A stretch of DNA of 39,088 bases from Rubrivivax sp. (GTDB lineage: Bacteria > Pseudomonadota > Gammaproteobacteria > Burkholderiales > Burkholderiaceae_C). The position numbers and the translations under genes are program-made. The stretch's first letter is position 1; each line of letters starts with the position of its first letter. Below, one piece after another: positions 263 to 18,375 of the stretch. The notes beneath the pieces were generated by a model. It was not told the DNA's origin. It was given only the letters and a program-made list of their open reading frames with translations, and did no database searches. Location: contig JAEUPF010000123.1 in NCBI GenBank assembly GCA_016790425.1, positions 1 to 39,088 on the forward strand. The letters are read 5' to 3'.

Positions 263-1294
263 TCAGTTCTCCAGCTTGATGTTCGCCTTCTTCACCAGGT
301 CGGCATAGCGCGCCAGGTCGGCTTTCATCAGCGCACCGTAGGCCTCCGGGCCGTTGACGAAGCGGTCGAGGCCGAGGCTGAGCAGGCGCTCCTTCATCTC
401 GGGCGTGTCCATCACCGCGCCGATGTCCGCGGCGAGCTTGTCGACCAGCGCCGGCGGCGTTCCCGCCTTGGCGATGAAGCCGAACCACAGCCGCGCCTGG
501 AAGCCCGGCATGCCGGCTTCGGCGAAGGTGGGCACTTGCGGGATCGCCGGCACGCGGGCGTCGCCGGTCACCGCCAGCGCCTTCAGCCGGCCGTTCGTGA
601 TGAACGGCAATGCGGCCACGGGCGCTGCGAACGAGAACTCGACCTGGCCGCCGATGAGGTCGGTCAGCGCCGGGCCTGCGCCCTTGTAGGCGACGTGGTG
701 GGTCTTGATCTCGGCCATCACGTTGAGCATCTCGCCGGCAAGGTGGGTCGTTCCGCCCGCGCTCACCGACGCGTAGTTGAACTTGCCGGGGCTCGCCTTC
801 GCCAGCGCGATGAACTCCTGCAGGTTCCTGGCCGGCAGCGCCGGGTTGACCACGAGCACCAGTTCGCTGCTGTACAGCGAGAGCACCGGCGCGAAGTCCT
901 TGATCGAGTCGTAGGGCGTGGACATCAGCAGCGGGTTGATCACATGCGTGCTGCTGGCCAGCAGCAGCGTGTGGCCATCGGCGGCCGAGCGCAGCACGTC
1001 GCTGGCACCGATGATGCCGCTGGCCCCCGGGCGGTTGTCGACCACCACGGCCTGGCCCCACTTGTCCTTGAGCTTGTGGCTGAGCAGCTGCGCCACGATG
1101 CTCGTGCCGCCGCCGGGCGGATAGGGCACGACGAAGCGAACCGTCTTGTTGGGGAATCCCTGGGCGACCGCCGCTGCCATCGACAGCAGCCAGCCGCCCG
1201 CGACAAGCGCTGCGGCCGCCGGCAGTCGCCGCGGGGGGCAGCGCCTGCCGAACGCCGACGCTGCGCCGCTGCCGAAAGCAAGCCAGTTCCTCAT
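263..1294 (-). CDS. TTT-family (Bug) periplasmic solute receptor
   Basis: A 343-aa extracytoplasmic binding protein of the tripartite tricarboxylate transporter family, which captures carboxylates for a TctA/TctB-type membrane pump. A long N-terminal signal region ends near AVAQ-GFPN. Mature-protein motifs typical of the family follow: P-N-K-T-V-R-F-V-V-P-Y-P-P-G-G-G, VVDNRPG, S-A-A-D-G-H-T-L-L and V-A-Y-K-G-A-G-P. ATG 1294 is chosen because GAGGG lies 7 nt upstream; an adjacent GTG at 1297 is too close. It is the last gene of the leftward operon 263-8610, so its ligand is probably the substrate of that pathway. No TctA or TctB gene is in the window, so it must use a distant membrane component. 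Confidence 0.9.
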   Translation of the reverse strand: MRNWLAFGSGAASAFGRRCPPRRLPAAAALVAGGWLLSMAAAVAQGFPNKTVRFVVPYPPGGGTSIVAQLLSHKLKDKWGQAVVVDNRPGASGIIGASDVLRSAADGHTLLLASSTHVINPLLMSTPYDSIKDFAPVLSLYSSELVLVVNPALPARNLQEFIALAKASPGKFNYASVSAGGTTHLAGEMLNVMAEIKTHHVAYKGAGPALTDLIGGQVEFSFAAPVAALPFITNGRLKALAVTGDARVPAIPQVPTFAEAGMPGFQARLWFGFIAKAGTPPALVDKLAADIGAVMDTPEMKERLLSLGLDRFVNGPEAYGALMKADLARYADLVKKANIKLEN

Positions 1295-1315
1295 CACGCA
1301 ACCCTCACTGCGAAG

Positions 1316-2458
1316 TCATGCGGAAGATACGCCGGTCGCGGCGGCGTGCGGCGCGCCTGCGCGCGGTGCCTGCTGCGCGCCTGCGCGCGTTGCGATCACC
1401 CCGGCCCCGAACCACGGGCCCTCTTCGTCGCGAAGGCGCAGGCTCAGCGTCGGCGGCGTTGTCGCCGTCGCCACGCCGCGCGAAGGCCACTGCGAAGCGG
1501 CCAGCGTCGCCAGCGCCAGCCCGGCGCGGGCGCCTTCGAGGCGCCAGGATTCGACGCGCGCGCCCGGCAGACGCGGCAATGCCGCGTCGATCGCGGCAGT
1601 GAGTCGTTCGGGCGAATCGGCGGGGGAGTTCGCCAGCAGTTCCTGGAACCACGCTTCGGTGCGCGCGAGTCGCGGCGGTGCCGCCCCGTCGGGTGCGGCG
1701 GTGCGGGCCAGGCGCAGCCAGCACCCCTTGTAGGCCAGCGTGACCTGCAGGGCAACCTCCCGGCCCAGTGCAGCGGTGCCCTCGATGCGACGCAGGCGCG
1801 GGTCGGATCGCATGTCCGGCGCCAGCGCCAGCGCGACCTCCTCGGCGCCGGCGAGGCGAGCCGTGCCTTCGGCGGCCGCCAGCACCGCTGCCGCGTCGCC
1901 GCGGCCGGCTTGTTCGAGCCCAGCGGCCAGCGCGCTGCCGGCGATGGCCAGCGCGCGCTGCACGACGGCTTGCGGCGTGCCGCCGCCTGGCGCCAGCGCG
2001 GCGTCGAGCAGATCGCCCGCTTCCTCGAAGCGCACGTCAGGGCGCCGGCGGCGAACCACCGCGACCACGCCGTCGGGCAGGCCGGCCAGTTCGACCACGC
2101 CCACGCGCAATGCGGCCCCGGCTGCCGCCGGCAACGCGTCGCTCACCCCCTGGCCGAGGTCGAGCGTATTGACCAGGCGATCCAGCCGCGAAGTGGAGTG
2201 GATCCAGTCGGCGACGCGGCGCGACATCGTGGCCACCAGCGTCGCGCCGGCATCCGGCGCGACGACCAGCACGCCGTTGCTCCAGTACGGGATGAAATGC
2301 GTCAGCGCCGACACGGCGGCCGGCCGCGTCAGGTCGGTGTAGACCAGCACGCAGTGCAGAGCGCGTTCGCGCAGGCCGGCGACCAGCGCTGCCATCCGGC
2401 GTTCGAGGAGCGCCGGCGGCACTTCGTCGTGCGACCAGGCCATCAGTCCACGGCGCAT
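1316..2458 (-). CDS. Degenerate creatinase/M24-like protein
   Basis: A 380-aa protein whose first 150 residues resemble a creatinase N-terminal domain. The remainder resembles a decayed M24 'pita-bread' fold: the segment Y-K-G-C-W-L-R-L-A-R-T lines up with the usual G-Y-x-x-D-x-T-R-T strand, but the two Asp, one His and two Glu that bind metal in M24 peptidases are not recognisable. The start has AGGAG 8 nt upstream and lies 13 nt after the stop of the neighbouring M24 gene, so the two are probably co-translated. I infer a non-catalytic partner, or a metal-independent enzyme, working with its neighbour. Homology is assigned by eye and is remote. The C-terminus is Ala/Arg-rich and probably disordered. 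Confidence 0.6.
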   Translation of the reverse strand: MRRGLMAWSHDEVPPALLERRMAALVAGLRERALHCVLVYTDLTRPAAVSALTHFIPYWSNGVLVVAPDAGATLVATMSRRVADWIHSTSRLDRLVNTLDLGQGVSDALPAAAGAALRVGVVELAGLPDGVVAVVRRRRPDVRFEEAGDLLDAALAPGGGTPQAVVQRALAIAGSALAAGLEQAGRGDAAAVLAAAEGTARLAGAEEVALALAPDMRSDPRLRRIEGTAALGREVALQVTLAYKGCWLRLARTAAPDGAAPPRLARTEAWFQELLANSPADSPERLTAAIDAALPRLPGARVESWRLEGARAGLALATLAASQWPSRGVATATTPPTLSLRLRDEEGPWFGAGVIATRAGAQQAPRAGAPHAAATGVSSA

Positions 2459-2471
2459 CGCGGGTCTCCTT

Positions 2472-3584
2472 TCAGCCGCCGACGCTGAACAGCGTGCGCG
2501 GTGTCGCCGTCAGCACCTCGGCGCCTTCGGCGCGCGCGATCGCCGAATCACCGAGCACGACATAACCGACGTCCGGATGGTAGGTGTTGGGATGCACGAT
2601 GAGGGTCATGCCGGCTTCGATCGGCAGCTCGACGTCTTCGAGCAGCGCCGGGCGCGAGTCGACGTACAGCCCGAGCCCGTGGCCGCGCACGCGCGTGTAG
2701 CGGTTGGTCGTGTACTCGCCGAGGCCCGCGGCGCGGAAGACGTCGTTCTCGGTGCGCGCCACCGCGGCGGCGGTGACGCCCGGCCGCAGTGCGGCCAGCC
2801 CCGCCTCCATGCTGCGGCGGAACAGATCGAAAGCGGCCGCCTGCGGTGCCGTCGGCGCCCCGAGCACGAGCGTGCGGCACACCTGCGCGTAGTAGCCGTC
2901 GACGCACGGCGTCAGCTCGGTCGTCACCAGGTCGCCGGCGGCCAGCCGGCGCTCGCCCGGGGGGTGCATGCCGCGAACCTCGCGGCCGCCGGAGCCGAGG
3001 ATCATGAAGTTGTCGGGCACGCCGCGGCTGCGGAAGAAGGCCTCGACCTCCGCGGTCAGCTCGTACTCGGCGCGGCCGGGCCGCGCCGCACGCAGGAAGA
3101 CCTCGTAGCCTTCGTCGGCCATCGCCGCGGCGCGTCGCACCGCTGCGATTTCCTCGTCGCTCTTGCGCATCATCAGTCCGTCGAACGGCTCGCCGGCATC
3201 GGCTAGCCGGCCGCGCCCGGCTTCGACGATGCCGTGCGGCATCAGCTTCAGCGGCGCCGCGGCGACGCGGTGGCCCGGCGCCGCGGCCATGGCGCTCACC
3301 TCGGCAGCGAGCGTGTTCAGCAGGTCGGGCCGCCAGTCGACATCGCAGTCGGGCGCCTCGACGCCGGCGCGCTCGGCCTCCATCGCGCATTCGAGGGTGA
3401 GGCGCACGCTGCCGTCGCTTTCCAGGATGGCCAAGCCGTGGCCTTCGAGGATCGGGAAGTCGCTGACGTAGCGCAGGTAGTCGCAGCGCCAGGCGTTGCC
3501 GTAGACCAGCAAGCGGTCCCAGCCGCGGTCGCGGCACAGCTCGCGCAGGCGCTTGCGCCGTTGCCGGGCCAGGGTCAGCGACAT
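2472..3584 (-). CDS. M24/creatinase-family protein lacking the metal ligands
   Basis: A 370-aa protein with a creatinase N-terminal domain (about 1-135) and a pita-bread domain (about 143-370), the layout of Xaa-Pro peptidases and creatinase. The active-site His is kept in GHGLG (H302). The usual ligands are replaced: the first Asp by E223, the second by Q234 (A-Q-V-C-R-T), the Glu of the GMxxxxEP motif by H331, and the last Glu in the strand Y-V-V-L-G-D is absent. Creatinase itself works without metal, so a metal-independent C-N hydrolase is plausible; a proline peptidase is unlikely. ATG 3584 has AGGAG 8 nt upstream; the reading frame stays open further upstream, but there it overlaps the CapA-like gene. 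Third from the end of the operon. Confidence 0.8.
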   Translation of the reverse strand: MSLTLARQRRKRLRELCRDRGWDRLLVYGNAWRCDYLRYVSDFPILEGHGLAILESDGSVRLTLECAMEAERAGVEAPDCDVDWRPDLLNTLAAEVSAMAAAPGHRVAAAPLKLMPHGIVEAGRGRLADAGEPFDGLMMRKSDEEIAAVRRAAAMADEGYEVFLRAARPGRAEYELTAEVEAFFRSRGVPDNFMILGSGGREVRGMHPPGERRLAAGDLVTTELTPCVDGYYAQVCRTLVLGAPTAPQAAAFDLFRRSMEAGLAALRPGVTAAAVARTENDVFRAAGLGEYTTNRYTRVRGHGLGLYVDSRPALLEDVELPIEAGMTLIVHPNTYHPDVGYVVLGDSAIARAEGAEVLTATPRTLFSVGG

Positions 3585-3636
3585 CAGCGGGTCTCCTGCA
3601 TCGGTGCGGTGATCATCGCGGCGAACGGTGCGGCAG

Positions 3637-5043
3637 TCAGTGCTGCAGATCGACGACGGTCGTCGTGCCGTCCACCGACAGCCGCGTTCCATGGTGCGCC
3701 GACAGGCGCGCCGCGCGCTGCAGAACGCGCGCGGCCACTTCCCCGCGTGCCAGCAGCGGCCGGCCGCGCTGCGCCCGCGGCCTGCCGTGGCCCAGGTCCA
3801 GCGGATGCAGCCGCAGTTCGGCCAGCCGGCCGGCGCGGAAGTCGCAGGTGGCGACGAAGCTCTCCCAGAACGCGGCCTCGGCCGGGAAGCCGCGCGTGTC
3901 GTTGCCGGTGCGCGCGTCGAGGAAGTCGGCCGGCGTCGCTTCATGGCCGAGTCCGAAGCGGCCGTACGACTCCGACGGGAAGACGGGCACGGTGTCGTTC
4001 TGGAACACGAAGTTGCCGAGGCTGTAGAGGATCGGGCGGCCGCGGTAGATCTCGACCCCCAACGTCAGGTGCGGGCCGTGCCCGGCGACCACGTCGGCGC
4101 CGGCGTCGACGGCCGCGCGCGCGAAGGCGGTGGCGAACGCCGCGGGCTCCTCCATGCCGGCGTCGGTGGGCGCGGTCAGCCGGCCGGCGCTGCCGAACTC
4201 GTGCGAGTGGAACGAGAAGATCACCCAGTCGGCCTGGCGGCGCGCCTCGCGGATCGCGCGCAGATTGGCCTCGCCGTCGGCGCGGTTCACGGCGGTGCCC
4301 ACGGTGAAGCCTGCGCCGCGCTCGAAGTGCGCGCCCAGCAGTTCCAGCGCATCGTCGCGCTCGGGCGCCACCTCGCTGGCGCTGTAGAACTGGGCCCGGT
4401 GGCGGGCCCGTTCGGCCGTCAGCCCGAGCGAGTCGCTGATGCGACGCAAAGCGCGCAGCGCCTCGTCGTCGACCTGGTAGCGGCGCGCGAAGCCGAGCGG
4501 GTTGACGCCGGGGCGGCCGGCGGCATCGGGGCGCTGGTCGGCGGCGCGGTTCCAGGGCCGGAAGAACGACGTCGCGGCGACCAGCGCGACGCGGCCGGCA
4601 GGCGTGTCGACGTACGCCGGCGCGCGCGCTTCGGCCAGGTTCGCACCGATGCCCGCGGCCGGGATGCCCGCGCGCGCCAGGTGCGCGGCCATCGCCAGCA
4701 GGCCATCGTGACCGTAGTCGGTGGCGTGGTTGTTGGCGCACGAGACGATGTCGAAGCCGAGCCACTTCAGGTCTTCCAGCAGCCGCGGCGCGGTCGTCAT
4801 CGGCGTGCCCTGCGTGAAGTTGGGCGTGCCTTCGTCGCGTTCGCGCACCACGGTCTCGAGGTTGCCGAAAGCCACGTCGGCGCCGCGCACGAGCGAAGCC
4901 AGCGCGAGGTAGTCGTCCTCGTCGAAGACGGCGAGCGCGCGCGAGGGCATCAGGTCGCCGGCCAGCAGCATGCGGACGTCGCCCCGCTCGGATCGGTACG
5001 GCACGGCTCGGGCTCCGGCAGCTTCAGCGCAGGCTGGCGGCAT
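3637..5043 (-). CDS. CapA-like (PGA_cap) metallophosphoesterase-fold protein
   Basis: A 468-aa protein of the CapA/PgsA family, which has a calcineurin-like phosphoesterase fold and is named for poly-gamma-glutamate capsule synthesis. The family's motifs are in order: AGDLMPSR, NLETVV, CANNHATDYG, FSFHSHEFG, G-H-G-P-H-L-T and Y-S-L-G-N-F-V-F, so the putative metal site is intact. No signal peptide or membrane anchor is evident, unlike capsule CapA. The reported ATG overlaps the 3' end of the TcuA-like gene by 20 nt. ATG 4971 is an alternative but would cut into the first beta strand. No other capsule genes are nearby, so a role in the carboxylate pathway of this operon is more likely than capsule synthesis. 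Confidence 0.8.
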   Translation of the reverse strand: MPPACAEAAGARAVPYRSERGDVRMLLAGDLMPSRALAVFDEDDYLALASLVRGADVAFGNLETVVRERDEGTPNFTQGTPMTTAPRLLEDLKWLGFDIVSCANNHATDYGHDGLLAMAAHLARAGIPAAGIGANLAEARAPAYVDTPAGRVALVAATSFFRPWNRAADQRPDAAGRPGVNPLGFARRYQVDDEALRALRRISDSLGLTAERARHRAQFYSASEVAPERDDALELLGAHFERGAGFTVGTAVNRADGEANLRAIREARRQADWVIFSFHSHEFGSAGRLTAPTDAGMEEPAAFATAFARAAVDAGADVVAGHGPHLTLGVEIYRGRPILYSLGNFVFQNDTVPVFPSESYGRFGLGHEATPADFLDARTGNDTRGFPAEAAFWESFVATCDFRAGRLAELRLHPLDLGHGRPRAQRGRPLLARGEVAARVLQRAARLSAHHGTRLSVDGTTTVVDLQH

Positions 5044-6529
5044 GCAGCGCGGCGCTGCGCCCGCCGATGCGCCCGAACACGGCCCCCGACATCAGGCCGC
5101 TGCCGCTGGCGTAGTTGTGATAGTAGAGGCCGCCCACCAGTTCGCCGGCACCGAAGAGGCCCGGGATGCGCTTGCCCGCGGTGTCCTGCACCGCTGCTTC
5201 TGTGTCGACCTTCAGCCCGCCGAAGGTGAAGGTGATGCCGCACGAGACGCCGTAGGCGTGATACGGCGGCTTGTCCAGCCGCGTGGCCCAGTTGGACTTC
5301 TCGATCGGCAGGCCGCGCGTGGCGAGGCCGTCGCGAACGTTGGGGTCGAAGGGCACGTCGGGTCGCGGTGCCGCGTTGTAGGCGTTGATCGTCGCCAGCG
5401 CGCGCCCGGCATCGACGCCTTCGAGCTTGGTCACCAGTTCCTCGAACGTGTCGGCCTGCACCTTGGTCATGCGGCGGATGCGGTAGTCCTCGCGCAGCAG
5501 GTGCGTCACCTTCTGGTCGAAGACCTGCCAGGCGAACTGCCCCGGCTGGTTCAGCACCTCGCGGCCGTACTTGGCGTAGGTGTAGGTGTGGAAGTCGGCA
5601 CCCTCGTCGAGGAAGCGCTCGCCGCGGGCGTTGAGGTAGATGCCGAAGGTGTAGTTGTGCTTCTGGAAGCTGTCGCCGACGCTGAGGTCGCCGAACGGCG
5701 GCGCGTTCATGTCCCACTCGGTGGCATGGCAGCCTGACCAATGGCCCATCGGCATCGCACCGATGTCCAGCGCCATCTGGATGCCGCGGCCGGTGTTGAA
5801 CGCGGTGCCGCGCACGTGCGCCAGGTCCCAGTTGGGCCCCAGGTAACGCGCGCGCATCTCGGCGTTCGATTCGAAGCCGCCGCAGGCGAGCACCACCGCG
5901 CGCGCGTGCAGCTCCACCGTGCGGCCGTCGCGCCGCGCACGCACGCCGGTGACGCCGCGGTCGTCGTGCAGCAGGTCGATCGCCGGCGTCTCGTACAGCA
6001 CCGGGATCCCCTGCTGCTCCAGGCGCTTGTGCAGCGCCTCCACCAGGCCCGGCCCGCCGCCCCAGATCTGGCACGGCAGGCCGCCCCAGAACTTGAACTT
6101 GCCGCCGACGTTGAAGGCGTGGCTGCCCAGCGTGAGCTGCAGCCGCACGCCCTGCTGGCACATCCAGCGCGCGGTGTCGAAGCTGCGCTTGATCATCACC
6201 TCGGTCAGGTCGGGGTGGCAGCGGTACTGCGTCAGCCGGCCCATGTCGTCGAAGAACTGGCCCTCGGTGTAGGTGTCGAACTCGACGTTCGACAAGTCCA
6301 TCTCCACCATCTCGGGCACCACCTGGCGCAGGTCGTCGGGCCCGTTGTAGGCGAAGCGCAGCATGCCGCCGGTGAAGGTGGAGTTGCCGCCGCGCAGCTC
6401 GCGCGGCGCCGCTTCGAGCATCAGCACGCTGGCGCCGTGCTCGCGGGCCGAGAGCGCCGCGCAGGCGGCGGCGTTGCCCGCGCCGACGACGATGACGTCG
6501 GCGGCCCTTTCGTTGCTGTCGCTGTTCAT
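5024..6529 (-). CDS. tcuA: FAD-dependent tricarballylate dehydrogenase-like protein
   Basis: A 501-aa flavoprotein of the fumarate reductase/succinate dehydrogenase superfamily, closest by eye to TcuA, which oxidises tricarballylate to cis-aconitate. The FAD dinucleotide motif G-A-G-N-A-A is at residues 16-21, followed by E-A-A-P and the TcuA-like G-G-N-S-T-F-T-G-G-M-L-R. The C-terminal FAD motif includes G-G-L-Y-Y-H-N-Y-A-S-G-S-G-L. ATG 6529 has AGGAA about 9 nt upstream and overlaps the stop of the small aconitase-type subunit by four bases (ATGA), indicating translational coupling. No TcuB gene, the iron-sulfur/cytochrome partner that reoxidises TcuA, is present here. The substrate may be another tricarboxylate or an alpha,beta-saturated dicarboxylate. 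Confidence 0.8.
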   Translation of the reverse strand: MNSDSNERAADVIVVGAGNAAACAALSAREHGASVLMLEAAPRELRGGNSTFTGGMLRFAYNGPDDLRQVVPEMVEMDLSNVEFDTYTEGQFFDDMGRLTQYRCHPDLTEVMIKRSFDTARWMCQQGVRLQLTLGSHAFNVGGKFKFWGGLPCQIWGGGPGLVEALHKRLEQQGIPVLYETPAIDLLHDDRGVTGVRARRDGRTVELHARAVVLACGGFESNAEMRARYLGPNWDLAHVRGTAFNTGRGIQMALDIGAMPMGHWSGCHATEWDMNAPPFGDLSVGDSFQKHNYTFGIYLNARGERFLDEGADFHTYTYAKYGREVLNQPGQFAWQVFDQKVTHLLREDYRIRRMTKVQADTFEELVTKLEGVDAGRALATINAYNAAPRPDVPFDPNVRDGLATRGLPIEKSNWATRLDKPPYHAYGVSCGITFTFGGLKVDTEAAVQDTAGKRIPGLFGAGELVGGLYYHNYASGSGLMSGAVFGRIGGRSAALHAASLR

Positions 6530-7161
6530 GGGTTGGTGTTCCTGTCGGGAGCGGGAAAGAGCCACGGCGAACGCTCGCGGTGCGCGCGCTCGAAGGCGTC
6601 GATGGCGTCGCGCTGGCGCTCGGTCAGCTCCAGGTCGGTGAGGCCTTCGAGCAGGCAGCGCTTGCGCCGAGCGCCGATGGCGAAAGGGTGCGCGCGGCCG
6701 TCCGGCCCGGTGGCGGTCTGGCGCGGCAGGTCGATGACGATGTGCGCGCCGGGCGTCCGCTGCACGCTGGCGCGCAGGGCATCGACCGCGGCGGCGGGCA
6801 GCGCCACCGGCAGCACGCCGTTTTGCAGGCAGTTGCCGACGAAGATGTCGCCGAAACTCTCGGCGATGACCGCGCGCAGCCCGAACGCCACCAGCGCGAA
6901 GACCGCCGCCTCGCGCGACGAGCCGACGCCGAAATTCCGTTGCGCCACCAGGATGCGCGCGCCGGCGTAGGCCGGCTGGTCGAGGACGAAGCCCAGCTTG
7001 CGTCCGTCCGCACCGTGGCGCCGGTCGTGCAGGAACACGTGGTCGTGCGGCCCGGGCTCGGCGAAGCTGCGGATCAGCCGCGCTGGACAGATCTGGTCGG
7101 TGTCGACGTTGGACTCGTCCAGCGGGACGGCCACGGCATCGAAAACCTGGAAGGCTTCCAT
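6526..7161 (-). CDS. Aconitase-family small subunit (LeuD-like)
   Basis: A 211-aa swivel-domain subunit of the 3-isopropylmalate dehydratase/homoaconitase family. NVDTDQI is at residues 18-24 and NFGVGSSREAA at 76-86; the usual REHA is REAA here. Together with the adjacent large subunit it should form a dehydratase moving a hydroxyl group through a cis-aconitate-type intermediate. It lies 3 nt after the large-subunit stop and overlaps the TcuA-like gene by ATGA. The context (TcuA-like enzyme, TTT receptor, LysR, no leuB or leuA) argues against leucine synthesis and for a catabolic hydratase. Sequence alone does not fix the substrate. Confidence 0.85.
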   Translation of the reverse strand: MEAFQVFDAVAVPLDESNVDTDQICPARLIRSFAEPGPHDHVFLHDRRHGADGRKLGFVLDQPAYAGARILVAQRNFGVGSSREAAVFALVAFGLRAVIAESFGDIFVGNCLQNGVLPVALPAAAVDALRASVQRTPGAHIVIDLPRQTATGPDGRAHPFAIGARRKRCLLEGLTDLELTERQRDAIDAFERAHRERSPWLFPAPDRNTNP

Positions 7162-7164
7162 GGT

Positions 7165-8610
7165 CTAGAGGTCGGCCACGCCGCCGATGCGGCCGAGCAC
7201 CGCGCTGGCGGCCGCCGAGGCCGGGCTCATCAGGTGGGTGCGGCTGCCCGGGCCCTGGCGGCCGGGGAAGTTGCGGTTCGAGGTCGATGCGCAGCGCTCG
7301 CCCGGCTGCAGGAAGTCCTCGCCGTTGACGCCGGTGCACAGCGAACAACCCGAGTCGCGCCAGGTCAGCCCGGCGGCGATGAAGACGTGGTGCAGGCCTT
7401 CGGCTTCGGCCTGCCGCTTGACACCGCTGGAGCCGGGCACCACCAAGCCGGGCACCAGCGCGTGCCGGCCGTCGAGCACGCCGGCGGCTTCGCGCAGGTC
7501 CTCGATGCGCCCGTTCGTGCATGAGCCGATGAAGACGCGGTCGATGCGCACATCGGCCAGCGGCTGGCCGGGCCGCAGGTCCATGTACGCCAGGGCTTTC
7601 GCCTGCGCCGCGCGCTGCGCCGCATCGGCCTGCGCGGCCGGATCGGGCACGCGGCCGTCGAGCGCGACGCACTGCTCGGGGCTCGTGCCCCAGGTGGCCA
7701 TCGGCACCACCGTGTGGCCGTCCAGTTGCACCTCGCGGTCGAAGCAGGCGTCGTCGTCGCTCGGCAGGCGGCGCCAGGCCGCCACGGCGCGGTCCCACGA
7801 CTCGCCGCGCGGTGCCTCGGGGCGGCCGGCCAGGTACTGCAGCGTCGTGTCGTCGGGCGCGACCATGCCGGCGCGGGCGCCGGCCTCGATCGACATGTTG
7901 CACAACGTCATGCGTTGCTCCATCGACAGCGCCGCGACGGCGCTGCCGGCGTACTCGATGACGTGGCCGGTGCCGCCGCCGGTGCCGATGCGGGCGATGA
8001 TCGACAGGACCAGGTCCTTGGCCGTGGCGCCGCGGCCGAGCCGGCCGTCGACGCGGATGCGCATCGCCAGCGGCCGCGCCTGCCACAGCGTCTGCGTGAC
8101 CATGGCGTGCATCACCTCGGAGGCGCCGATGCCGAACGCCAGCGCACCGAAGGCGCCGTGCGTGGCGGTGTGCGAGTCGCCGCCGCAGATGACCATCCCC
8201 GGCAGCGTGATGCCGAGCTCGGGCGCCACCACGTGCAGGATGCCCTGGCGCGGGTCGTGCAGCCCCACCAGGCGGCAGCCGTGGCGGCGCGCGTTGTCCT
8301 CGAGCGAGACCACCATCTGGCGGATCGATGCGTCGGCGATCGCCGCCACGCCTTGCGCGCGGCGCGTCGTGGGCATGTAGTGGTCGGCGCAGGCGATCAC
8401 CTGGGCCGGGCTGCGCACGGTCCTGCCGCGCCGTTCCATCGCCGCGAACGCCGGTCGCGAGCCTTCGTGGATGAGCGTGCGGTCGACGTAGACCAGCGCG
8501 TCGCCGTCTTCCAGCGCGAGCACGCTGTGCGCGCGCCAGATCTTGTCCAGCATCGTGCGGCCGGTGGTGCCGGAGTTGCCGGGGGCGCCGGCGGCAGCGG
8601 GCGTGTCCAT
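7165..8610 (-). CDS. Aconitase-family large subunit (LeuC-like)
   Basis: A 481-aa iron-sulfur hydro-lyase subunit of the 3-isopropylmalate dehydratase/aconitase superfamily. The cluster ligands are C364 (G-S-C-T-N-G-R) and C422/C425 (S-G-C-S-L-C). G-G-D-S-H-T-A-T-H-G-A-F-G and S-T-S-N-R-N-F-P-G-R-Q-G are also conserved. It is the promoter-proximal gene of the leftward operon, divergent from the LysR gene at 8751. Start choice is uncertain: ATG 8610 gives a short Gly/Thr-rich leader, while ATG 8553 (M-L-D-K-I-W) matches where E. coli LeuC begins to align; neither has a strong ribosome binding site. A further upstream in-frame ATG at 8676 is possible but less likely. Confidence 0.87.
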   Translation of the reverse strand: MDTPAAAGAPGNSGTTGRTMLDKIWRAHSVLALEDGDALVYVDRTLIHEGSRPAFAAMERRGRTVRSPAQVIACADHYMPTTRRAQGVAAIADASIRQMVVSLEDNARRHGCRLVGLHDPRQGILHVVAPELGITLPGMVICGGDSHTATHGAFGALAFGIGASEVMHAMVTQTLWQARPLAMRIRVDGRLGRGATAKDLVLSIIARIGTGGGTGHVIEYAGSAVAALSMEQRMTLCNMSIEAGARAGMVAPDDTTLQYLAGRPEAPRGESWDRAVAAWRRLPSDDDACFDREVQLDGHTVVPMATWGTSPEQCVALDGRVPDPAAQADAAQRAAQAKALAYMDLRPGQPLADVRIDRVFIGSCTNGRIEDLREAAGVLDGRHALVPGLVVPGSSGVKRQAEAEGLHHVFIAAGLTWRDSGCSLCTGVNGEDFLQPGERCASTSNRNFPGRQGPGSRTHLMSPASAAASAVLGRIGGVADL

Positions 8611-8651
8611 GGTCGAGACGGCCAATGTAGGGAGCCGTCGGCCGCTGCGCC

Positions 8652-8669
8652 ATAGAATGCATCGACTAT
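8652..8669. promoter_or_regulatory. Inverted repeat in the LysR/leuC-like divergent region
   Basis: ATAG (8652-8655) and CTAT (8666-8669) form a short dyad separated by 10 bases, between the divergent LysR and LeuC-like genes where a LysR operator is expected. TAGAAT (8653-8658) inside it also resembles a -10 box reading toward the LysR gene. The arms are only 4 bp, so this is a weak candidate. Confidence 0.3.
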
Positions 8670-8750
8670 CAGCCATGCGCGGCGCGCATGGGTTGCCGGC
8701 GTGCCCGGCGTGCCGCCGGCAGCGCCGCGCCGGCGGCGAGGGGCCGGCCG

Positions 8751-9647
8751 ATGAGACTGGAAGACCTGCGTGCCTTCATCCGCGTGGCCGAGTCGGGCAG
8801 CATCTCGCAGGCGGCCCTCGGGCTCGGCCTGACGCAGCCCTCGGTCAGCCGCCTGCTGGCGGCGCTGGAAGAAGAGTGCGGCACACGGCTGTTCCACCGC
8901 ACCGGGCGCGGGGTGCAGCTGACCGAGGCCGGTCAGGCGGCGCTGCCCAAGGCGCGCGCCATCGTTCTCGACGCCGACCGGCTCGTCGTCGACATGCGCG
9001 ACTTCGGCCAGTCACCCTCGGGCGTCGTCACCGTGGCCTTGCTGCCGTGGATGATGCAGCGCATCGCCGGCGACCTCTACGACGAGGTGCGCCGGGCCTA
9101 CCCGCGCATCGTGCTGCGCATGGCCGAGGGCCTGAGCAGCCGCAACGAGGAAGGGCTCGCCGATGGCCGCATCGACATCGCGCTCATCGGCCGCTATCGC
9201 GCCACGCCGGCGCGCGGCGAGGAGGTGCTGATCGACTCGCAGCTGGCATTGATCAGCCCGCGGCGGCCCGAGGCGGTGCCGAAGACGATCGCCTTCCGCG
9301 ACCTGGCATCGATCCCGCTGGTGCTGCCTTCGACGCAGCATCGGCTGCGCGCGGCCGTGGAGGCCGTGGCGCGCAGCCGGCGCGTGCACCTGAACGTCGT
9401 GGCCGAGGCCGATTCCTACGAGGCGCAGAAGGCGATCGTCCGCCGCCAGGGCTGCTGCATGCTGCTCAGCCCCGAGACAGCGCAGCACGACGTGGCCGGC
9501 GGCCAGTTCCACGCCCGCGAGATCATCCAGCCGCGCATGCCGCGCCTGGTGGTGATGTCGACCACCACGCACCGGCCGCTCAGCCGCGCGGCGCGCGGCG
9601 TGGCTGCCATCGTGCGGCGGCTGGTGCGCAAGGCGGCCGCGCGCTGA
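8751..9647 (+). CDS. LysR-family transcriptional regulator
   Basis: A 298-aa regulator. Residues 1-60 are the LysR winged helix-turn-helix (M-R-L-E-D-L-R-A-F-I-R-V-A-E-S-G-S-I-S then Q-A-A-L-G-L-G-L-T-Q-P-S-V-S-R-L-L); the rest is the periplasmic-binding-protein-like effector domain. ATG 8751 is supported by GAGGGG 7 nt upstream. It is divergent from the LeuC-like gene and so probably controls the operon 263-8610 in response to a carboxylate pathway intermediate. An in-frame ATG upstream (8688) would add an atypical Arg/Ala-rich tail and is rejected. Confidence 0.92.
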   Translation: MRLEDLRAFIRVAESGSISQAALGLGLTQPSVSRLLAALEEECGTRLFHRTGRGVQLTEAGQAALPKARAIVLDADRLVVDMRDFGQSPSGVVTVALLPWMMQRIAGDLYDEVRRAYPRIVLRMAEGLSSRNEEGLADGRIDIALIGRYRATPARGEEVLIDSQLALISPRRPEAVPKTIAFRDLASIPLVLPSTQHRLRAAVEAVARSRRVHLNVVAEADSYEAQKAIVRRQGCCMLLSPETAQHDVAGGQFHAREIIQPRMPRLVVMSTTTHRPLSRAARGVAAIVRRLVRKAAAR

Positions 9648-9659
9648 ACGCGGCCGCGG

Positions 9660-9679
9660 TCGAGCGCTTCAGCGCTCGA
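9660..9679. terminator. Bidirectional hairpin between convergent genes
   Basis: TCGAGCGC (9660-9667) and GCGCTCGA (9672-9679) form a perfect 8-bp stem with loop TTCA. The loop contains the stop codon of the leftward gene at 9669. No T-run follows on either side, so termination activity is an inference from position and symmetry. Confidence 0.45.
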
Positions 9680-10022
9680 ACGAGCCCCCGTCGCCCGTGT
9701 CCAGGTGCGGCGGGCAGCGGCCTTCGGCGGGCTCGCCCGTCTCCGGGTCGAGCCAGGTGTTGATGCCGATGGCGTCTTCGGCTTCGGCCAGTGCCAATGC
9801 AGCGGGATCCTGGTCGTCGCGCTCGCGGTCGGCGCGCGCCGCTTCGGCCGAAGGAAAAGGGCCGAACTGCTCGTGGCCGTTGCGGGCCACCCAGTACCAG
9901 CCGTCGGGGTGCAGCACGATGCCCTGCTCGGCGCCGTCGGCGCGGTGTTCTTCGATGACCGCCGCAGCCCCTTGGCGGCGCAGCGGGCGCGGGGGGCGCT
10001 GGGGCTTGGGGTGCTGAAGCAT
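9669..10022 (-). CDS. Conserved-looking hypothetical protein, 117 aa
   Basis: A small acidic, probably cytoplasmic protein with no membrane segment. The N-terminus is Pro/Arg-rich (about residues 1-20). A central segment G-W-Y-W-V-A-R-N-G-H-E-Q-F-G-P-F resembles short aromatic strand repeats seen in uncharacterised proteobacterial proteins, and the C-terminus carries N-T-W-L-D-P-E-T-G-E-P-A-E. ATG 10022 has AGGA 9 nt upstream. The gene is convergent with the LysR gene and divergent from thioredoxin 2. I do not recognise a function. Confidence 0.7.
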   Translation of the reverse strand: MLQHPKPQRPPRPLRRQGAAAVIEEHRADGAEQGIVLHPDGWYWVARNGHEQFGPFPSAEAARADRERDDQDPAALALAEAEDAIGINTWLDPETGEPAEGRCPPHLDTGDGGSFER

Positions 10023-10119
10023 CACGGGAAGTCCTTTCGTGGGCATGCTAATCCAGCCGGCGCGGTCGTGGCGTGTCGCGGCGGGCCCCCGGTGGCGGCG
10101 CGGCGCCTGTTCAGGCGGC

Positions 10120-10137
10120 GCTTGATGACCGTCAAGC
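10120..10137. promoter_or_regulatory. Palindrome upstream of trxC
   Basis: GCTTGA (10120-10125) and TCAAGC (10132-10137) form a 6-bp dyad with a 6-base spacer in the divergent promoter region of trxC. TGGAAT at 10152-10157 is a possible -10 box for trxC, about 30 bases before its start codon. A regulator cannot be named. Confidence 0.3.
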
Positions 10138-10188
10138 CGGCCCCATTTGCGTGGAATCCCGGCCAGACACCCACCACCCGAGCCCGCC

Positions 10189-10629
10189 ATGACGCACCTC
10201 GCCTGCCCGCAATGCGGCACCACCAACCGGCTGGCCGAAGACCGCCTGCGCGACGAACCCGTTTGCGGCCGCTGCGGCGCCGAGTTGATGGCCGCGCGGC
10301 CGGTGGCGCTGGCCGACGCGGTGTTCGACCCGTTCATCGCCGGCACCGAACTGCCGGTGCTGGTGGACTTCTGGGCCGAGTGGTGCGGCCCGTGCCGCAT
10401 GATGGCGCCGCAGTTCGAACAGGCCGCCGCGATGCTGCCGCAGGTGCGCTTCGCGAAAGTCGACACCGAAGCGAACCCGAAGGCGAGCGTGCGCAACCGC
10501 ATCCGCAGCATTCCGACGATGGTGCTCTACGCCGGCGGCCGCGAGGTGGCGCGGCGCAGCGGCGCGATGGCCGCCGCTGATCTCGTGCGCTGGGTGCAGG
10601 CCCAGGTCGCGCAGGCGCCGGCGGGCTGA
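10189..10629 (+). CDS. trxC: Thioredoxin 2
   Basis: A 146-aa cytoplasmic disulfide reductase. An N-terminal zinc-binding module with C6/C9 and C26/C29 distinguishes thioredoxin 2 from thioredoxin 1. The active site W-C-G-P-C is at 65-69 and the cis-proline loop is R-S-I-P-T-M-V-L-Y. Length matches the family (about 139-148 aa). ATG 10189 is the first start that gives the expected M-T-H-L-A-C-P-Q-C N-terminus. It is followed by a universal stress protein after 38 bases, and both fit a stress-response context. Confidence 0.95.
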   Translation: MTHLACPQCGTTNRLAEDRLRDEPVCGRCGAELMAARPVALADAVFDPFIAGTELPVLVDFWAEWCGPCRMMAPQFEQAAAMLPQVRFAKVDTEANPKASVRNRIRSIPTMVLYAGGREVARRSGAMAAADLVRWVQAQVAQAPAG

Positions 10630-10667
10630 GGAAGCCAGAAACCCATAAAACAACCCCGGAGAACCCC

Positions 10668-11129
10668 ATGCCCTACAAGCGTCTTCTCGTGCCCCTGGAC
10701 GAATCGGAAACCGCGCAGCGCGGCCTGGCCGAGGCGGTGACGCTGGCGCGCGCGCTCGGCAGCACGGTGGTGCTGCTGCACGCGGTGGAACTGGCGCCGA
10801 TGCTGCCGGAAGTGGCCACCGGCGAGGCGTGGCAAGCCATCGGCGAGGGCCTGAAGGCCAACGGCCAGCGCGTGCTCGATGCCGCCCGGCAGCGCCTGAG
10901 CGCCGCCGGCGTGCCGTGCGAGGCGGTGCTGCACGAAGCCGATGCCGGCCGGCCGGCCGACACCATCGTTGCCGAAGCCACCGCACAACACTGCGACCTC
11001 ATCGTCATGGGCACGCATGGCCGCCGCGGCATTGGCCGCGCGCTGCTCGGCTCCGACGCCGAGCTGGTGCTGCGCCAGAGCCCGGTGCCGGTGCTGCTGG
11101 TGCGCGGGCAAGGCAGCGCTGCCGGCTGA
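10668..11129 (+). CDS. Universal stress protein (UspA family)
   Basis: A 153-aa single-domain Usp. The N-terminal strand R-L-L-V-P-L-D-E-S and the nucleotide-binding signature G-T-H-G-R-R-G-I-G-R-A-L-L-G-S, followed by P-V-P-V-L-L-V-R, fit the G-2X-G-9X-G(S/T) pattern of ATP-binding Usp proteins. CGGAG precedes the ATG. It lies downstream of trxC and upstream of an NRAMP-family transporter on the same strand. The specific stress is unknown. Confidence 0.93.
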   Translation: MPYKRLLVPLDESETAQRGLAEAVTLARALGSTVVLLHAVELAPMLPEVATGEAWQAIGEGLKANGQRVLDAARQRLSAAGVPCEAVLHEADAGRPADTIVAEATAQHCDLIVMGTHGRRGIGRALLGSDAELVLRQSPVPVLLVRGQGSAAG

Positions 11130-11182
11130 AGCTTTCGCGCGGTTCCTGCCGCGCCGGGCATGAAGGCTGCCGAAGGGCAGCC

Positions 11183-12679
11183 GTGAATCGCACCATCGGC
11201 AAGGCGGCGCAGGCCGCGCTCGCAACGGAAGTGGCGAAGGCGGCGCAGGAAAGGGCCGCCGCAACGGTGCCGGCCGGGCCGGCCAGCGCACCGAGCCCAG
11301 CCACGGACAAGAAGCGCCGCCCGGGTCTCCTCGGCCGCCTGGGCCCCGGCCTCATCACCGGCGCCGCCGACGATGATCCCAGCGGCATCGCCACCTACAG
11401 CCAGGCCGGGGCGCAGTTCCGCTTCGGCCTGGCGTGGACGCTGTTGCTGACGACGCCGCTGATGATCGCCGTGCAGCTGGTCTCGGCGCGCATCGGCTAC
11501 GTCACGCGGCAGGGGCTCGCTGCCGGCATGTGCCGGCTGCTGCCGCGGCGCGCCGCGCTGGTGATCGTCGCGGCGCTGGTGGTGGCCAACACCATCAACA
11601 TCGCGGCCGACATCTCGGCCATGGCCGAGGCCACGCGCCTGCTGACCGGCGGCCCTTCATGGCCTTGGGTGCTGGCCTGGGGCGGCGCCTCGGCGGCGCT
11701 GCAGATCTACGCCTCGTACGAGCGCACCGTGCGCGTGCTCAAGTGGCTGACGCTGACGCTCTTCGCCTACGTGGCGGTGGTGCTCGTCATCGAGGTCCCG
11801 TGGCGGCGCGCGCTCGAGGAATCGGCGGCGCCGTGGCGCGCGCTGCCGCCGGGCTCGGCCAAGGCCTACGCGGCGATGGTGGTGGCGATGCTCGGCACGA
11901 CGATCTCGCCGTACCTCTTCTTCTGGCAGGCCACGCAGGAAGCCGAGGAGCACCGGCGCGCGGCGAAGGCGCCGACGCCTCACCCGGGCGGGCCCGCCGC
12001 CGAGCGGCACGGCGGGCACGACAAAACCGACAAGCGCGGCGGGCACGACAAGCACGACAAGGACGACAAGCAAGACCCGCAAGACCGGCACGGCAAGATG
12101 GCCGGGCGCCTGGCCGCGATCCGCCAGGACACGGTGCTCGGCATGCTGCTGTCCAACGCCGTCGCGCTGTGCATCGTCTTCTCGGCTGCGGTGGCGCTGA
12201 ACCTGGCCGGCCACACCGACATTCGCTCGGCCGCCGACGCCGCCGCGGCGCTGCAGCCGGTGGCCGGCGAGTTCGCGTTCGCGCTCTTTGCGCTGGGCAT
12301 CGTCGGCACCGGCGCCCTGGCCATTCCGGTGCTGGCCGGCTCGGCCGCCTACGCGGTGAGCGAGGTCTTCGGCTGGCGCGCCGGACTGTCGCGCCGCTTC
12401 CAGGACGCGCGCGGCTTCTACTCGATCATCCTGGCGGCCACGCTGCTGGGCACCGCGATGAGCCTGGTGCAGGTCGACGCGATGGCCGCGCTGGTGACGA
12501 GCGCGGTCATCAACGGCGTCATCGCCGTGCCGGTGATGGCGGTGATGCTGCTCATCGGCCGCTCGCGCCGGCTGCTGGGCGAGTTCGTCATCGGGCCGTG
12601 GCTGGCCGCCCTCGGCTGGGCGGCCACCGCGGTGATGGCCGCGGCGTCGCTGGCCATGTTCGCGACGATGTTCGGGTGA
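11183..12679 (+). CDS. NRAMP-family transporter, divergent metal site and His-rich loop
   Basis: A 498-aa polytopic inner-membrane protein of the NRAMP/SLC11 family (proton-coupled divalent cation uptake), with an N-terminal cytosolic tail of about 50 residues. The TM1 motif is DPSG (65-68) instead of DPGN, and TM6 reads T-I-S-P-Y (240-244) where MntH has V-M-P-H. The metal-coordinating Asn and Met are thus replaced, as in non-manganese members of the family. Between TM6 and TM7 is an inserted hydrophilic loop (about 257-305) with seven His and many Asp/Lys. The start is GTG 11183 with GAAGGG 6 nt upstream; no in-frame ATG fits. It follows the Usp gene by 53 bases. Confidence 0.85.
   Translation: MNRTIGKAAQAALATEVAKAAQERAAATVPAGPASAPSPATDKKRRPGLLGRLGPGLITGAADDDPSGIATYSQAGAQFRFGLAWTLLLTTPLMIAVQLVSARIGYVTRQGLAAGMCRLLPRRAALVIVAALVVANTINIAADISAMAEATRLLTGGPSWPWVLAWGGASAALQIYASYERTVRVLKWLTLTLFAYVAVVLVIEVPWRRALEESAAPWRALPPGSAKAYAAMVVAMLGTTISPYLFFWQATQEAEEHRRAAKAPTPHPGGPAAERHGGHDKTDKRGGHDKHDKDDKQDPQDRHGKMAGRLAAIRQDTVLGMLLSNAVALCIVFSAAVALNLAGHTDIRSAADAAAALQPVAGEFAFALFALGIVGTGALAIPVLAGSAAYAVSEVFGWRAGLSRRFQDARGFYSIILAATLLGTAMSLVQVDAMAALVTSAVINGVIAVPVMAVMLLIGRSRRLLGEFVIGPWLAALGWAATAVMAAASLAMFATMFG
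12011..12051 (+). repeat. Direct repeat encoding Gly-Gly-His-Asp-Lys in the NRAMP loop
   Basis: GGCGGGCACGACAA occurs at 12011-12024 and again at 12038-12051, a 27-nt period that preserves frame and encodes GGHDKTDKR then GGHDKHDKD. It suggests the loop grew by tandem duplication. Confidence 0.8.
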
Positions 12680-12739
12680 CGATGGCGCCGTAGCGCGAAA
12701 GCGCGGGCCGCCGCGCGCCGGGTCCTGGATCGAGTCTCC

Positions 12740-12745
12740 AATAAT
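12740..12745 (+). promoter_or_regulatory. Candidate -10 box of the HlyD-ABC operon
   Basis: AATAAT (12740-12745) matches TATAAT at five positions and is one of very few AT-rich spots in this stretch, 49 bases before the HlyD start codon. No clear -35 box is visible. Confidence 0.35.
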
Positions 12746-12793
12746 GCGCGTGCCGCGCGCGGCGTGTGCCGAAGCGCGGCGAGGAGACCGGGG

Positions 12794-13768
12794 ATGACGA
12801 TCGATGCGCAACCGGCCCGCGGCATCGGCGTGCTGGTGGCGGCGCTGCTGCTCGCGGCGTGCTCTGGCGAGGCGACGCCGCCGTGGTCGGGCTATGTCGA
12901 GGGCGAGTTCGTCTACGTGTCTTCGCCGCTGGCCGGCACGCTGACCCGCCTGGCCGTGCAGCGCGGCCAGACGGTGGCGCGCGGCGCACCGCTGTTCGCG
13001 CTCGATGCCAGCAGCGAACGCGATGCGCGCGACGAGGCGGCCGCGCGGCTGGCCACGGCGCGCGCGCAGGCCGCCAACACCACCAAGGGGCGGCGCAGCG
13101 ACGAGATCGCCGTCACGCAGGCGCAGCTGGCGCAGGCGCGGGCGCAGGCCGAGCTGGCCGATGCCGAGCTGGCGCGCCGGCGCGCGCTGGTGGCGCAGAA
13201 CTTCATCTCCGCCGCGCAGCTGGACGATGCGCGGGCAGCCGCCGAGCAGGCGCGCGCCCATGTCGCCGAACTGCAAGCGGCGCTGCGCGTGGCGCAACTG
13301 CCGGCGCGCAGCGACGAGCGCGCCGCCGCCCAGGCCACAGCGCAGGCGGCTTCGGCCGCGCTGGCGCAAGCCGCGTGGCGCGAGCAGCAGAAGGAGCAGA
13401 ACGCGCCGGCCGACGCACTGGTGAGCGACACATTCTTCCAGGTGGGCGAGTGGGTCGGCGCCGGCCAGCCGGTGGTGGCGCTGCTGCCGCCGGCGGGAAC
13501 GCGGGCCCGGTTCTACGTGGCCGAGGCCGAGGTCGGCGCCATCGCGCCCGGGCAGCGCGTGCTGATCCAGTGCAGCGGCTGCGGCGCGCCGATTCCCGGC
13601 CGCATCGAGCGCGTCGCCACGCAGCCCGAGTACACGCCGCCGGTCATCTACTCCAACGCGCAGCGCTCGCGGCTCGTGTTCATGGTCGAGGCGCGCCCGG
13701 ACGCTGCCGATGGCCTGCGGCTGAAGCCGGGGCAGCCCGTGGACGTGCGGCGGGCGCCGGCGCCCTGA
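12794..13768 (+). CDS. HlyD-family periplasmic adaptor lipoprotein
   Basis: A 324-aa membrane fusion protein. The N-terminal signal has a lipobox L20-A-A-C23, so it is probably a lipoprotein anchored in the inner membrane. A biotinyl-lipoyl-like half motif, V-Q-R-G-Q-T-V-A-R-G-A-P-L-F-A-L-D, leads into an Ala-rich coiled coil (about 75-195), then the returning lipoyl half and a beta-barrel segment. Domain order matches YbhG/YhiI-type adaptors. GAGGAG lies 7 nt before ATG 12794. It is the first gene of a three-gene exporter operon with the ATPase (13797) and permease (14836); the cargo is unknown. Confidence 0.9.
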   Translation: MTIDAQPARGIGVLVAALLLAACSGEATPPWSGYVEGEFVYVSSPLAGTLTRLAVQRGQTVARGAPLFALDASSERDARDEAAARLATARAQAANTTKGRRSDEIAVTQAQLAQARAQAELADAELARRRALVAQNFISAAQLDDARAAAEQARAHVAELQAALRVAQLPARSDERAAAQATAQAASAALAQAAWREQQKEQNAPADALVSDTFFQVGEWVGAGQPVVALLPPAGTRARFYVAEAEVGAIAPGQRVLIQCSGCGAPIPGRIERVATQPEYTPPVIYSNAQRSRLVFMVEARPDAADGLRLKPGQPVDVRRAPAP

Positions 13769-17212: not shown

Positions 17213-18175
17213 ATGAACCGATTGACCACAGGCCTCGTCGTCGGCGCGCTGGCGCTGTTCGCGGCGGCAGCCGGCGCGCAGACGGCCTACCCCGGCAAGC
17301 CGATCCGATTGGTCGTCCCGCTTCCCGCGGGCGGCCCGAGCGATGCTGCGGCACGCGCGTTGGCCCGGGGCATGGCCGCCGGGCTCGGTCAGGAGGTGCT
17401 GGTGGAGAACCGCCCCGGCGGCAACACCGGTACCGGCGCGGCCGCGGTGCTGCACTCTGCGCCCGACGGCTACACGTTGCTGTTCGCGCCGGCTTCCAAC
17501 GCCGGCCTGCCGCACCTGAGCAAGGCCTCGCCGTACAAGTCGATCGCCGAGTTCTCGCCGATCGCGGCGATCGGCGGCAACACGCAGTGCCTGGTGGTGC
17601 CCAGCAGCGTGCCGGCCAAGACGCTGGCCGAGTTCGCGGCCTATGCAAAGGCCGGCGCCAAGCCGTTGATGCGGGGCTCCAACAACGTCTCGGAGGACAT
17701 GGTGGCGGGTCAGGTCACCGGGGCGCTGGGCATCACGCTCGAACGCGTGCCCTACAAGGGGGCGCCCCAGCTCTTGCCCGACCTGCTCGAAGGCCGGATC
17801 CAGGTCGCGGTGCTGCCGGTGGGTGCCAGCCTTGCGCACGTGCGTGCCGGGCGGCTGGCCATGCTCGGCTGCAGCACGGCCGAACGCATCCCCGCGCTGC
17901 CGGCCGTGCCGACACTGGCCGAGTCGGGCGTCTCGGCCGCGCCGCTGATCACGGCGCACTTCGTGCTCGGGCCCGCGCGGCTGCCGGCAGAGATCATCGA
18001 GCGCCTGGCCGGCGCCGTACGCCAGGCCGCGCAGGCTGCGGAGTTCAAGCAGGAGATGGATCGCCTGTTGATCGTCGGCACGGCCCGGGCGCCGGCCGAG
18101 ACGCGCGAGCTGATGCTGCGGGCCGAGGCGCAGTACGCGCAGTTCGTGCGCGACACCGGCGCGAGCATCGACTGA
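17213..18175 (+). CDS. TTT-family (Bug) periplasmic solute receptor
   Basis: A 320-aa extracytoplasmic carboxylate-binding protein. A Sec signal peptide (1-22) ends at A-G-A-Q, followed by the family motifs Y-P-G-K-P-I-R-L-V-V-P, L-P-A-G-G-P-S-D, V-E-N-R-P-G-G and V-P-Y-K-G-A-P. ATG 17213 has GAGGA 9 nt upstream; a longer upstream frame is not needed. It is a single gene divergent from the SDR, with no membrane TctAB components nearby, so it probably feeds a shared distant pump. The ligand cannot be read from sequence. Confidence 0.9.
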   Translation: MNRLTTGLVVGALALFAAAAGAQTAYPGKPIRLVVPLPAGGPSDAAARALARGMAAGLGQEVLVENRPGGNTGTGAAAVLHSAPDGYTLLFAPASNAGLPHLSKASPYKSIAEFSPIAAIGGNTQCLVVPSSVPAKTLAEFAAYAKAGAKPLMRGSNNVSEDMVAGQVTGALGITLERVPYKGAPQLLPDLLEGRIQVAVLPVGASLAHVRAGRLAMLGCSTAERIPALPAVPTLAESGVSAAPLITAHFVLGPARLPAEIIERLAGAVRQAAQAAEFKQEMDRLLIVGTARAPAETRELMLRAEAQYAQFVRDTGASID

Positions 18176-18375
18176 CCGAAGCGCGTTCAGCGACGGGCCG
18201 GCCAACCGCAGGCACGCCGGCTGTTGACCTTGAGCCAGGGCAGGCCCATGCTGCGCGGCCGCGAGGAAGTACCGCATGGCCTCGGGCGCGTCCGCTGGCA
18301 AGGGAGTGTGGCGTGACCGCGGGTGGATCGGCAATCGTGGCCGGCCCTGCGGCACGCAACTGATGGAGCCCCACC

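Follow-up and report, generated by a model that had tools for sequence, protein, structure and literature searches.

The DNA considered here (the window) is the complete 39,088-base contig C2 (JAEUPF010000123.1, Rubrivivax sp.) of a metagenome-assembled genome (MAG) of 4.31 Mb that is 82% complete. Positions 263-9647 contain seven closely packed leftward genes, encoding LeuC, LeuD, a TcuA-like flavoprotein, a CapA-like protein, two M24-related proteins (M24a and M24b) and a receptor of the tripartite tricarboxylate transporter (TTT) type, together with a divergent LysR gene. The existence of this operon, as first described in an initial annotation of the sequence, is confirmed, and the spacing within the seven-gene block (-20 to 52 bp) fits a single transcript. 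The features are the following.

263-1294, minus strand: TTT (TctC/Bug-type) periplasmic receptor; PF03401, 226.8 bits; TctAB genes not adjacent
1316-2458, minus strand: M24b, degenerate partner with a creatinase/prolidase fold; without family match
2472-3584, minus strand: M24a, pita-bread hydrolase-like; non-canonical E223/Q234/H302/H331 at the M24 metal-ligand positions
3637-5004, minus strand: CapA/PGA_cap family, predicted metal-dependent Calpha-epimerase of MslH type; PF09587, 179 bits; MslH structure 8gq9, E 7e-76
5024-6529, minus strand: TcuA-like FAD-dependent dehydrogenase, paralogue of canonical TcuA; NF006130, 573 bits; TIGR02485, 277.6 bits
6526-7161, minus strand: LeuD-like small subunit, aconitase-superfamily hydratase paralogue; TIGR00171, 154 bits; motif GSSREAAV
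7165-8553, minus strand: LeuC-like large subunit, [4Fe-4S] cysteine motifs retained; TIGR00170, 610 bits
8554-8750, no strand: divergent intergenic region; one perfect T-N11-A dyad at 8676-8688, a candidate LysR box
8751-9647, plus strand: divergent LysR-type regulator; PF00126 and PF03466; outside the block shared with locus L032

Comparison with relatives probably favours the GTG at 5004 as the CapA start over the ATG at 5043, which is also open, and probably places the LysR start at 8751. M24b of the window was overlooked in gene calling, as were some genes of loci with lower GC content; the key genes were therefore checked by tblastn. Gene identities, the conservation of genes and catalytic residues, and the folds of both M24 models were computed directly.

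Conservation of the seven-gene block

The loci of CapA relatives were taken from a scan of genome contigs with the CapA alignment, of which the best 80 of 189 were used. Two of these 80, L032 from a groundwater betaproteobacterial MAG and L033 from a palsa Burkholderiales MAG, keep the order LeuC-LeuD-flavoprotein-CapA-M24a-M24b-TTT receptor. The window aligns with L032 at 74.8% DNA identity over 6,895 bp and with L033 at 76.5% over 6,417 bp, and the receptor gene is 73-76% identical to both across most of its length. At the protein level, identities among the three genomes are 60-85%, with tight spacing throughout. The earlier proposal that the genes form a conserved unit is thus borne out by the gene order, shared at ~75% DNA identity.

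The edges of the block differ between genomes. The alignment with L032 stops at the start of LeuC, the open reading frames beyond it (judged by eye) are unlike those of the window, the L032 receptor is inverted, and no adjacent LysR match was found there at the search thresholds used. The L033 contig begins inside LeuC. Past the receptor, the genes of L032 and L033 differ (by eye), a two-way comparison, as the window ends at this point. Taken together, the alignments suggest that the operon has probably moved as a unit. Its CapA-like gene is rare in the genus, as 24 other genus genomes gave one full-length match at 36% and fragments in two. No publication about this gene set was found by title or abstract start in the library searched.

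The CapA-like protein and the M24 pair

The nearest solved relative of the CapA-like protein is MslH (8gq9, E 7e-76), which epimerizes Trp in a lasso peptide. MslH is reported as a Ca-dependent enzyme with a metal site formed by E44, N87, H259 and H261, and with the dyads H88/D91 and H295/D11 (PMC10406935). Both proteins belong to the Calcineurin-like/PGA_cap family, 159 of 391 residues are identical over the compared stretch, and all eight of the metal and catalytic residues given there have an identical counterpart in the CapA-like protein (D30, E63, N105, H106, D109, H279, H281 and H325). The Trp pocket is different: only two of the nine residues listed for it are kept and seven are changed, with R378 in place of MslH L348. 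Given that the apparatus is retained and the pocket is not, the catalytic machinery is probably that of the MslH epimerase, acting on another substrate, and the CapA-like protein is most likely an epimerase. Seven of the eight catalytic and metal residues are invariant among eight aligned CapA sequences (D30 is a Glu in L042), as is R378; a distant copy in genome G029 (L023) has also lost the second metal histidine. Two further differences from MslH are that the score against the MslH model NF038314 (315 bits) lies below its cut-off of 700, which speaks against an epimerase of this type, and that the operon partners of the CapA-like protein are catabolic families.

A role in capsule synthesis was considered and rejected, as no capsule family occurs among the other operon genes and the MslH residues are kept. 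Four contexts were inspected among 265 plasmid records of CapA relatives. The Haladaptatus relative lies among genes for a D-aminoacylase, an alanine racemase, a creatininase and hydantoinases, the Rhizobium one follows a dipeptide-type ABC transporter, and the Sulfitobacter one accompanies an ABC transporter with a DapE-annotated gene. The Roseomonas context gave no functional hint, and this record carries a capsule-synthesis annotation.

The M24a model has the pita-bread fold. Creatinases are its top fold matches, yet they are tied with prolidases and DoeA, and an exact assignment as creatinase was dropped. Aligned by eye with the prolidase 3q6d, M24a has E, Q, H, H and G where the metal ligands D, D, H, E and E stand, so that only one of five positions matches exactly. 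Judged by this alignment, M24a is non-canonical and not a metal M24 enzyme of the usual kind; the initial annotation had called both M24 proteins creatinase-like. E223, Q234, H302 and H331 are invariant in five aligned M24a sequences and recur in the divergent L034 and L035 copies, at 31-35% identity. The pattern is absent from the weaker matches in L018 and L187; in L112, M24a is split over two frames, with Q, H and H present and the E position not covered.

M24b matches no Pfam or NCBIfam model. Its predicted structure is a full two-domain fold, which rules out the truncated half-fold suggested by the negative Pfam result and the hhalign span. A degenerate M24-like gene lies directly downstream of all eight genes with the E/Q/H/H pattern (window, L032, L033, L017/L020, L016/L021, L112, L034 and L035); the contig of genome G167 (L021) ends at M24a. 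This pairing, the single matching ligand position and the degenerate partner set the two proteins apart from creatinase, prolidase, the ectoine hydrolase DoeA and DddP, all M24B enzymes. For RdDddP, an enzyme of this fold, dimerization is reported to shape the substrate site (PMC4108388), and by analogy the natural inference is that M24a and M24b may form a heterodimer with a single working site. Two observations weigh against this reading of the pair: His207, a candidate catalytic residue of M24a, is absent from L034 and L035, and the partners in these loci match the M24b profile over only ~200 N-terminal columns.

The distribution of M24b is narrow. Scoring covered the three to five top first-look candidates of each genome, which makes the genome counts lower bounds: at least 5 of 399 genomes of the order at E 1e-3, genuine-looking only in its own genome, G167 and G204, and at least 3 of 398 genomes of the phylum at 1e-6, both non-self matches being weak. 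A plasmid search returned three records from a single genus at 24% coverage. On these counts, a broad presence of M24b was considered and rejected.

Every CapA relative more than 50% identical, four in all (L032, L033, L034 and L035), has the M24 pair within its locus; at the thresholds used the pair occurs in none of the remaining 76 best CapA loci, many of them cut by contig ends. Conversely, the eight loci with the M24 pair contain CapA in five cases and hydantoinase AB in three, one (L034) having both. In the other two, L020 and L112, the M24 pair accompanies hydantoinase/oxoprolinase AB and CapA was not seen. L035 has a gamma-glutamyltranspeptidase gene ~5 kb from its CapA, which is accompanied there by the M24 pair and by a TTT receptor, with no match to LeuCD or the flavoprotein. 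Both arrangements count against a single pathway served by all seven genes. CapA-M24 thus resembles a portable unit that is joined to several cores, LeuCD-flavoprotein being one of them. A CRISPR-like array (L035 13500-16800, ~40 copies at 60-bp spacing) lies a few kb past the CapA-M24 cluster of L035, and a Cas2-3 gene of type I-F comes after it (17414-20779).

Since L035 has CapA-M24 without LeuCD and the flavoprotein, the two halves of the operon could serve separate steps or substrates. On this account the operon would be composite, CapA, M24a/b and the receptor handling a peptide-like or gamma-glutamyl compound, LeuCD and the flavoprotein another carboxylate, and only regulation being shared. 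The gamma-glutamyltranspeptidase of L035 and the dipeptide-type transporter preceding the Rhizobium CapA relative are in line with it. However, the tight seven-gene order, kept in three genomes whose proteins are 60-85% identical, fits one pathway better, and we regard a composite operon as unlikely.

Proposed dehydrogenation and hydration, and the tricarballylate question

The window LeuC (610 bits; TIGR00170 cut-off 560) and LeuD (154 bits; TIGR00171 cut-off 116) pass the curated thresholds for isopropylmalate dehydratase, and C345, C403 and C406, the Fe-S cysteines, are invariant in all eight aligned LeuCs. However, contig C41 of the same genome has a housekeeping leuC-leuD-leuB-asd locus with higher scores (LeuC 762, LeuD 271 bits), which excludes the window pair as the leucine enzyme of this genome. 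The window LeuCD is an extra copy outside the leucine pathway, tied to a TTT receptor and a flavoprotein and not to leuB. The initial annotation had named two outcomes that would refute it, a lack of conserved co-occurrence of the seven genes and a LeuCD pair that is the only isopropylmalate dehydratase of the leucine pathway, and neither has come about. The small-subunit motif REHAPWA of the housekeeping protein is altered in the other eight of nine aligned copies and reads REAAVFA in the window; this change suggests a changed LeuD substrate. No same-genus LeuC closer than 57% was found among 18 genomes, and the closest among 30 other genomes is 60% identical. Another LeuCD paralogue (L196, G036:C11, 8845-14055) lies with TTT receptor genes and one for an enzyme of the mandelate-racemase/muconate-cycloisomerase type, which may parallel the proposed epimerase role.

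The flavoprotein, queried without its first nine residues, exceeds the cut-off of the TcuA model NF006130 (573 against 369 bits) and misses that of TIGR02485 (277.6 against 372.55 bits). In a tree of 48 rows, from which the partial TcuA of the same genome was left out, the window, L032 and L033 flavoproteins form one clade (100/100). Two further clades stand apart from it, one comprising L022, L042 and a single L084 copy out of two (100/99), the other L178 and L182 (100/100). Each of the three clades has members close to aconitase-family genes: besides the LeuCD of the window, L022 and L084 have a LeuCD of a different subfamily, L182 has LeuCD and a 902-residue open reading frame with an aconitase-type match, and L178 an aconitase-type match. 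The combination of TcuA-like protein, aconitase-family gene and TTT receptor thus recurs in four loci (L022, L084, L178 and L182) of two further clades, and its recurrence supports oxidation followed by hydration, which stands as the likeliest reading of this core. The L084 block (3353-13109) contains two TcuA-like flavoproteins, an L022-type LeuCD, CapA and several TTT receptors.

Several observations pull the other way. The deeper forks of the tree are weak and some branches long. In 40 of the 81 non-self places where nearer TcuA-like relatives occur, an aconitase-family match was found in only three (L174, L178 and L182) and CapA in none, so the flavoprotein family is not bound to such chemistry; several relatives adjoin other oxidoreductase-like genes (by eye), and no electron acceptor for the flavoprotein is evident in the operon. 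The absence of CapA from these 40 neighbourhoods rules out a general co-occurrence of TcuA-like proteins with CapA across Burkholderiales and confines the link to a few clades.

The route put forward in the initial annotation would import tricarballylate, free or as a conjugate, with TcuA oxidation to cis-aconitate and LeuCD hydration to an isocitrate-like product. The NF006130 score, the membership of LeuCD in the aconitase superfamily and L182, where the same flavoprotein family stands beside LeuCD, the 902-residue frame and TTT receptors, are compatible with this route. Like Tcu utilization (TcuA-TcuB-TcuC), the operon combines a TcuA-superfamily flavoprotein with a protein for carboxylate uptake and with a LysR gene; it differs in lacking TcuB (a curated model search found no match among the operon genes, and the seven shared genes include none) and TcuC, in its TTT-type receptor and in the additional LeuCD, CapA and M24 genes. 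Moreover, on contig C25 of this genome (L191, G000:C25:8000-18819) a TcuA truncated at the contig end lies together with TcuB and a TTT receptor at 7897-10819, likely the true tricarballylate locus. Because of this separate locus, the lack of TcuB and the only ~40% identity between the window flavoprotein and the partial C25 TcuA, tricarballylate is unlikely as the operon substrate. The missed TIGR02485 cut-off and the separate flavoprotein clade point the same way, and an epimerase would have no role on a symmetric acid; we consider the tricarballylate route as a whole very improbable.

The receptor is a clear PF03401 member (226.8 bits; cut-off 27). Its nearest solved relatives, Bug27 (2qpq, 226 bits) and 2dvz (225 bits), lie within 50 bits of the terephthalate-binding protein and BugD, too close to decide its ligand. 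No TctA or TctB gene is found among the eight genes of the operon, and the contig ends 262 bp past the receptor; TctA occurs at five places elsewhere in the genome, one being a contig-end fragment. The window has two more TTT-type receptors (17213-18175 and 19411-20334), accompanied by fumarylacetoacetate-hydrolase-family genes (20447-21313 and 23871-24770). An Nramp-type transporter at 11183-12679 has a His/Asp/Lys-rich insertion (HGGHDKTDKRGGHDKHDKDDKQD...), and its Pfam match is split in two stretches.

A proposed catabolic route

The likeliest reading of the locus is a catabolic operon for a chiral N-conjugated acid, probably an amide, ureide or lactam-derived conjugate of a substituted dicarboxylic or tricarboxylic acid; we infer the order of the steps, the heterodimer and all substrates and activities. 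The TTT receptor would catch the substrate, and TctAB encoded elsewhere would import it. The CapA-like protein, as a Ca-dependent epimerase of the MslH type, would then interconvert stereoisomers at the carbon beside the carboxylate. M24a would break the C-N bond, with M24b as the non-catalytic half of the heterodimer. The flavoprotein would convert the resulting substituted succinate to a compound with a maleate- or aconitate-type double bond, to which the LeuCD-like hydratase would add water, giving a substituted malate (isocitrate-like). Afterwards, a methylisocitrate-lyase-type enzyme could split this product. The initial annotation suggested that the CapA-like protein and the M24 pair could release the acid from an amide or ester conjugate; for the CapA-like protein an MslH-type epimerase is the better reading, and hydrolysis by the M24 pair remains a plausible assignment. 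The earlier interpretation is thus partly supported. We give the route as a whole about an even chance, and its dehydrogenation-hydration part is firmer than the rest.

The lyase is one of the weaker points. None is evident in the operon, and the three PrpB-type matches of the genome all fall below the PrpB cut-off, the best being on contig C15; a methylisocitrate-lyase-type gene does neighbour the operon in L032. Furthermore, we know of no activity for any operon member, which also counts against the proposal.

A second cluster of the same genome is pertinent to the substrate class. Contig C15 (L030, G000:C15:15000-34000, 3631-11603) combines a TTT gene and a PRK00402-type LeuCD with a gene for an allantoinase-like amidohydrolase; genes for a flavoprotein and a PrpB-like lyase lie beyond a single gene of opposite orientation. 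Neither the amidohydrolase nor the lyase reaches the curated cut-off. This cluster may be a parallel carboxylate/amide route, and because it follows a comparable plan while using an unrelated C-N hydrolase, it favours an amide, imide or ureide over a free tricarboxylate.

A more specific version has the operon degrade a substituted cyclic imide or half-amide, with M24a/b as (half-)amidase, CapA racemizing the succinamate, the flavoprotein forming a dialkylmaleate and LeuCD hydrating it. In nicotinate fermentation, dimethylmaleate hydratase hydrates a dialkylmaleate, which provides an analogy for LeuCD. DmdAB with its dimethylmalate lyase resembles the proposed sequence in that a LeuCD-type hydratase acts on a substituted maleate, followed by a lyase of the ICL superfamily; unlike that system, the operon has no lyase and different upstream enzymes. 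Hydantoinase/oxoprolinase AB beside the M24 pair in L020, L112 and L034, the sub-threshold allantoinase-like amidohydrolase of the parallel LeuCD-TTT cluster and the PrpB/ICL-like genes (under cut-off) that L022, L032 and L030 have close to their LeuCD-flavoprotein clusters argue for an imide. However, the operon contains no ring-opening enzyme, the nicotinate analogy found no literature match and the choice of substrate class is guesswork, which leaves imide degradation quite unlikely.

Beyond the N-conjugate route, CapA, M24a and M24b may together be an undescribed portable catabolic module, in which a Ca-dependent Calpha-epimerase would act with a heterodimeric pita-bread hydrolase in which a new conserved E/Q/H/H site takes the place of the dinuclear metal site and the partner subunit is a pseudoenzyme. 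Attached to LeuCD and a TcuA-like dehydrogenase, to hydantoinase AB or possibly to gamma-glutamyltranspeptidase, it would open otherwise inaccessible stereoisomers of amide and imide conjugates. We offer this tentatively, as a possibility with the odds against it. In its boldest form, the substrates would include alkyl-maleimide or succinimide-type products, such as those from tetrapyrrole decay. The operon enzymes look soluble by family, expressible and assayable. If the proposed catabolic reading is true, one part of the large "CapA family", annotated as capsule synthesis in plasmid records, would have a catabolic role, the M24 proteins would gain a lineage that occurs in pairs and has a rewired active site, and TcuA-like dehydrogenases and LeuCD paralogues would be oxidise-then-hydrate tools in TTT-linked operons.

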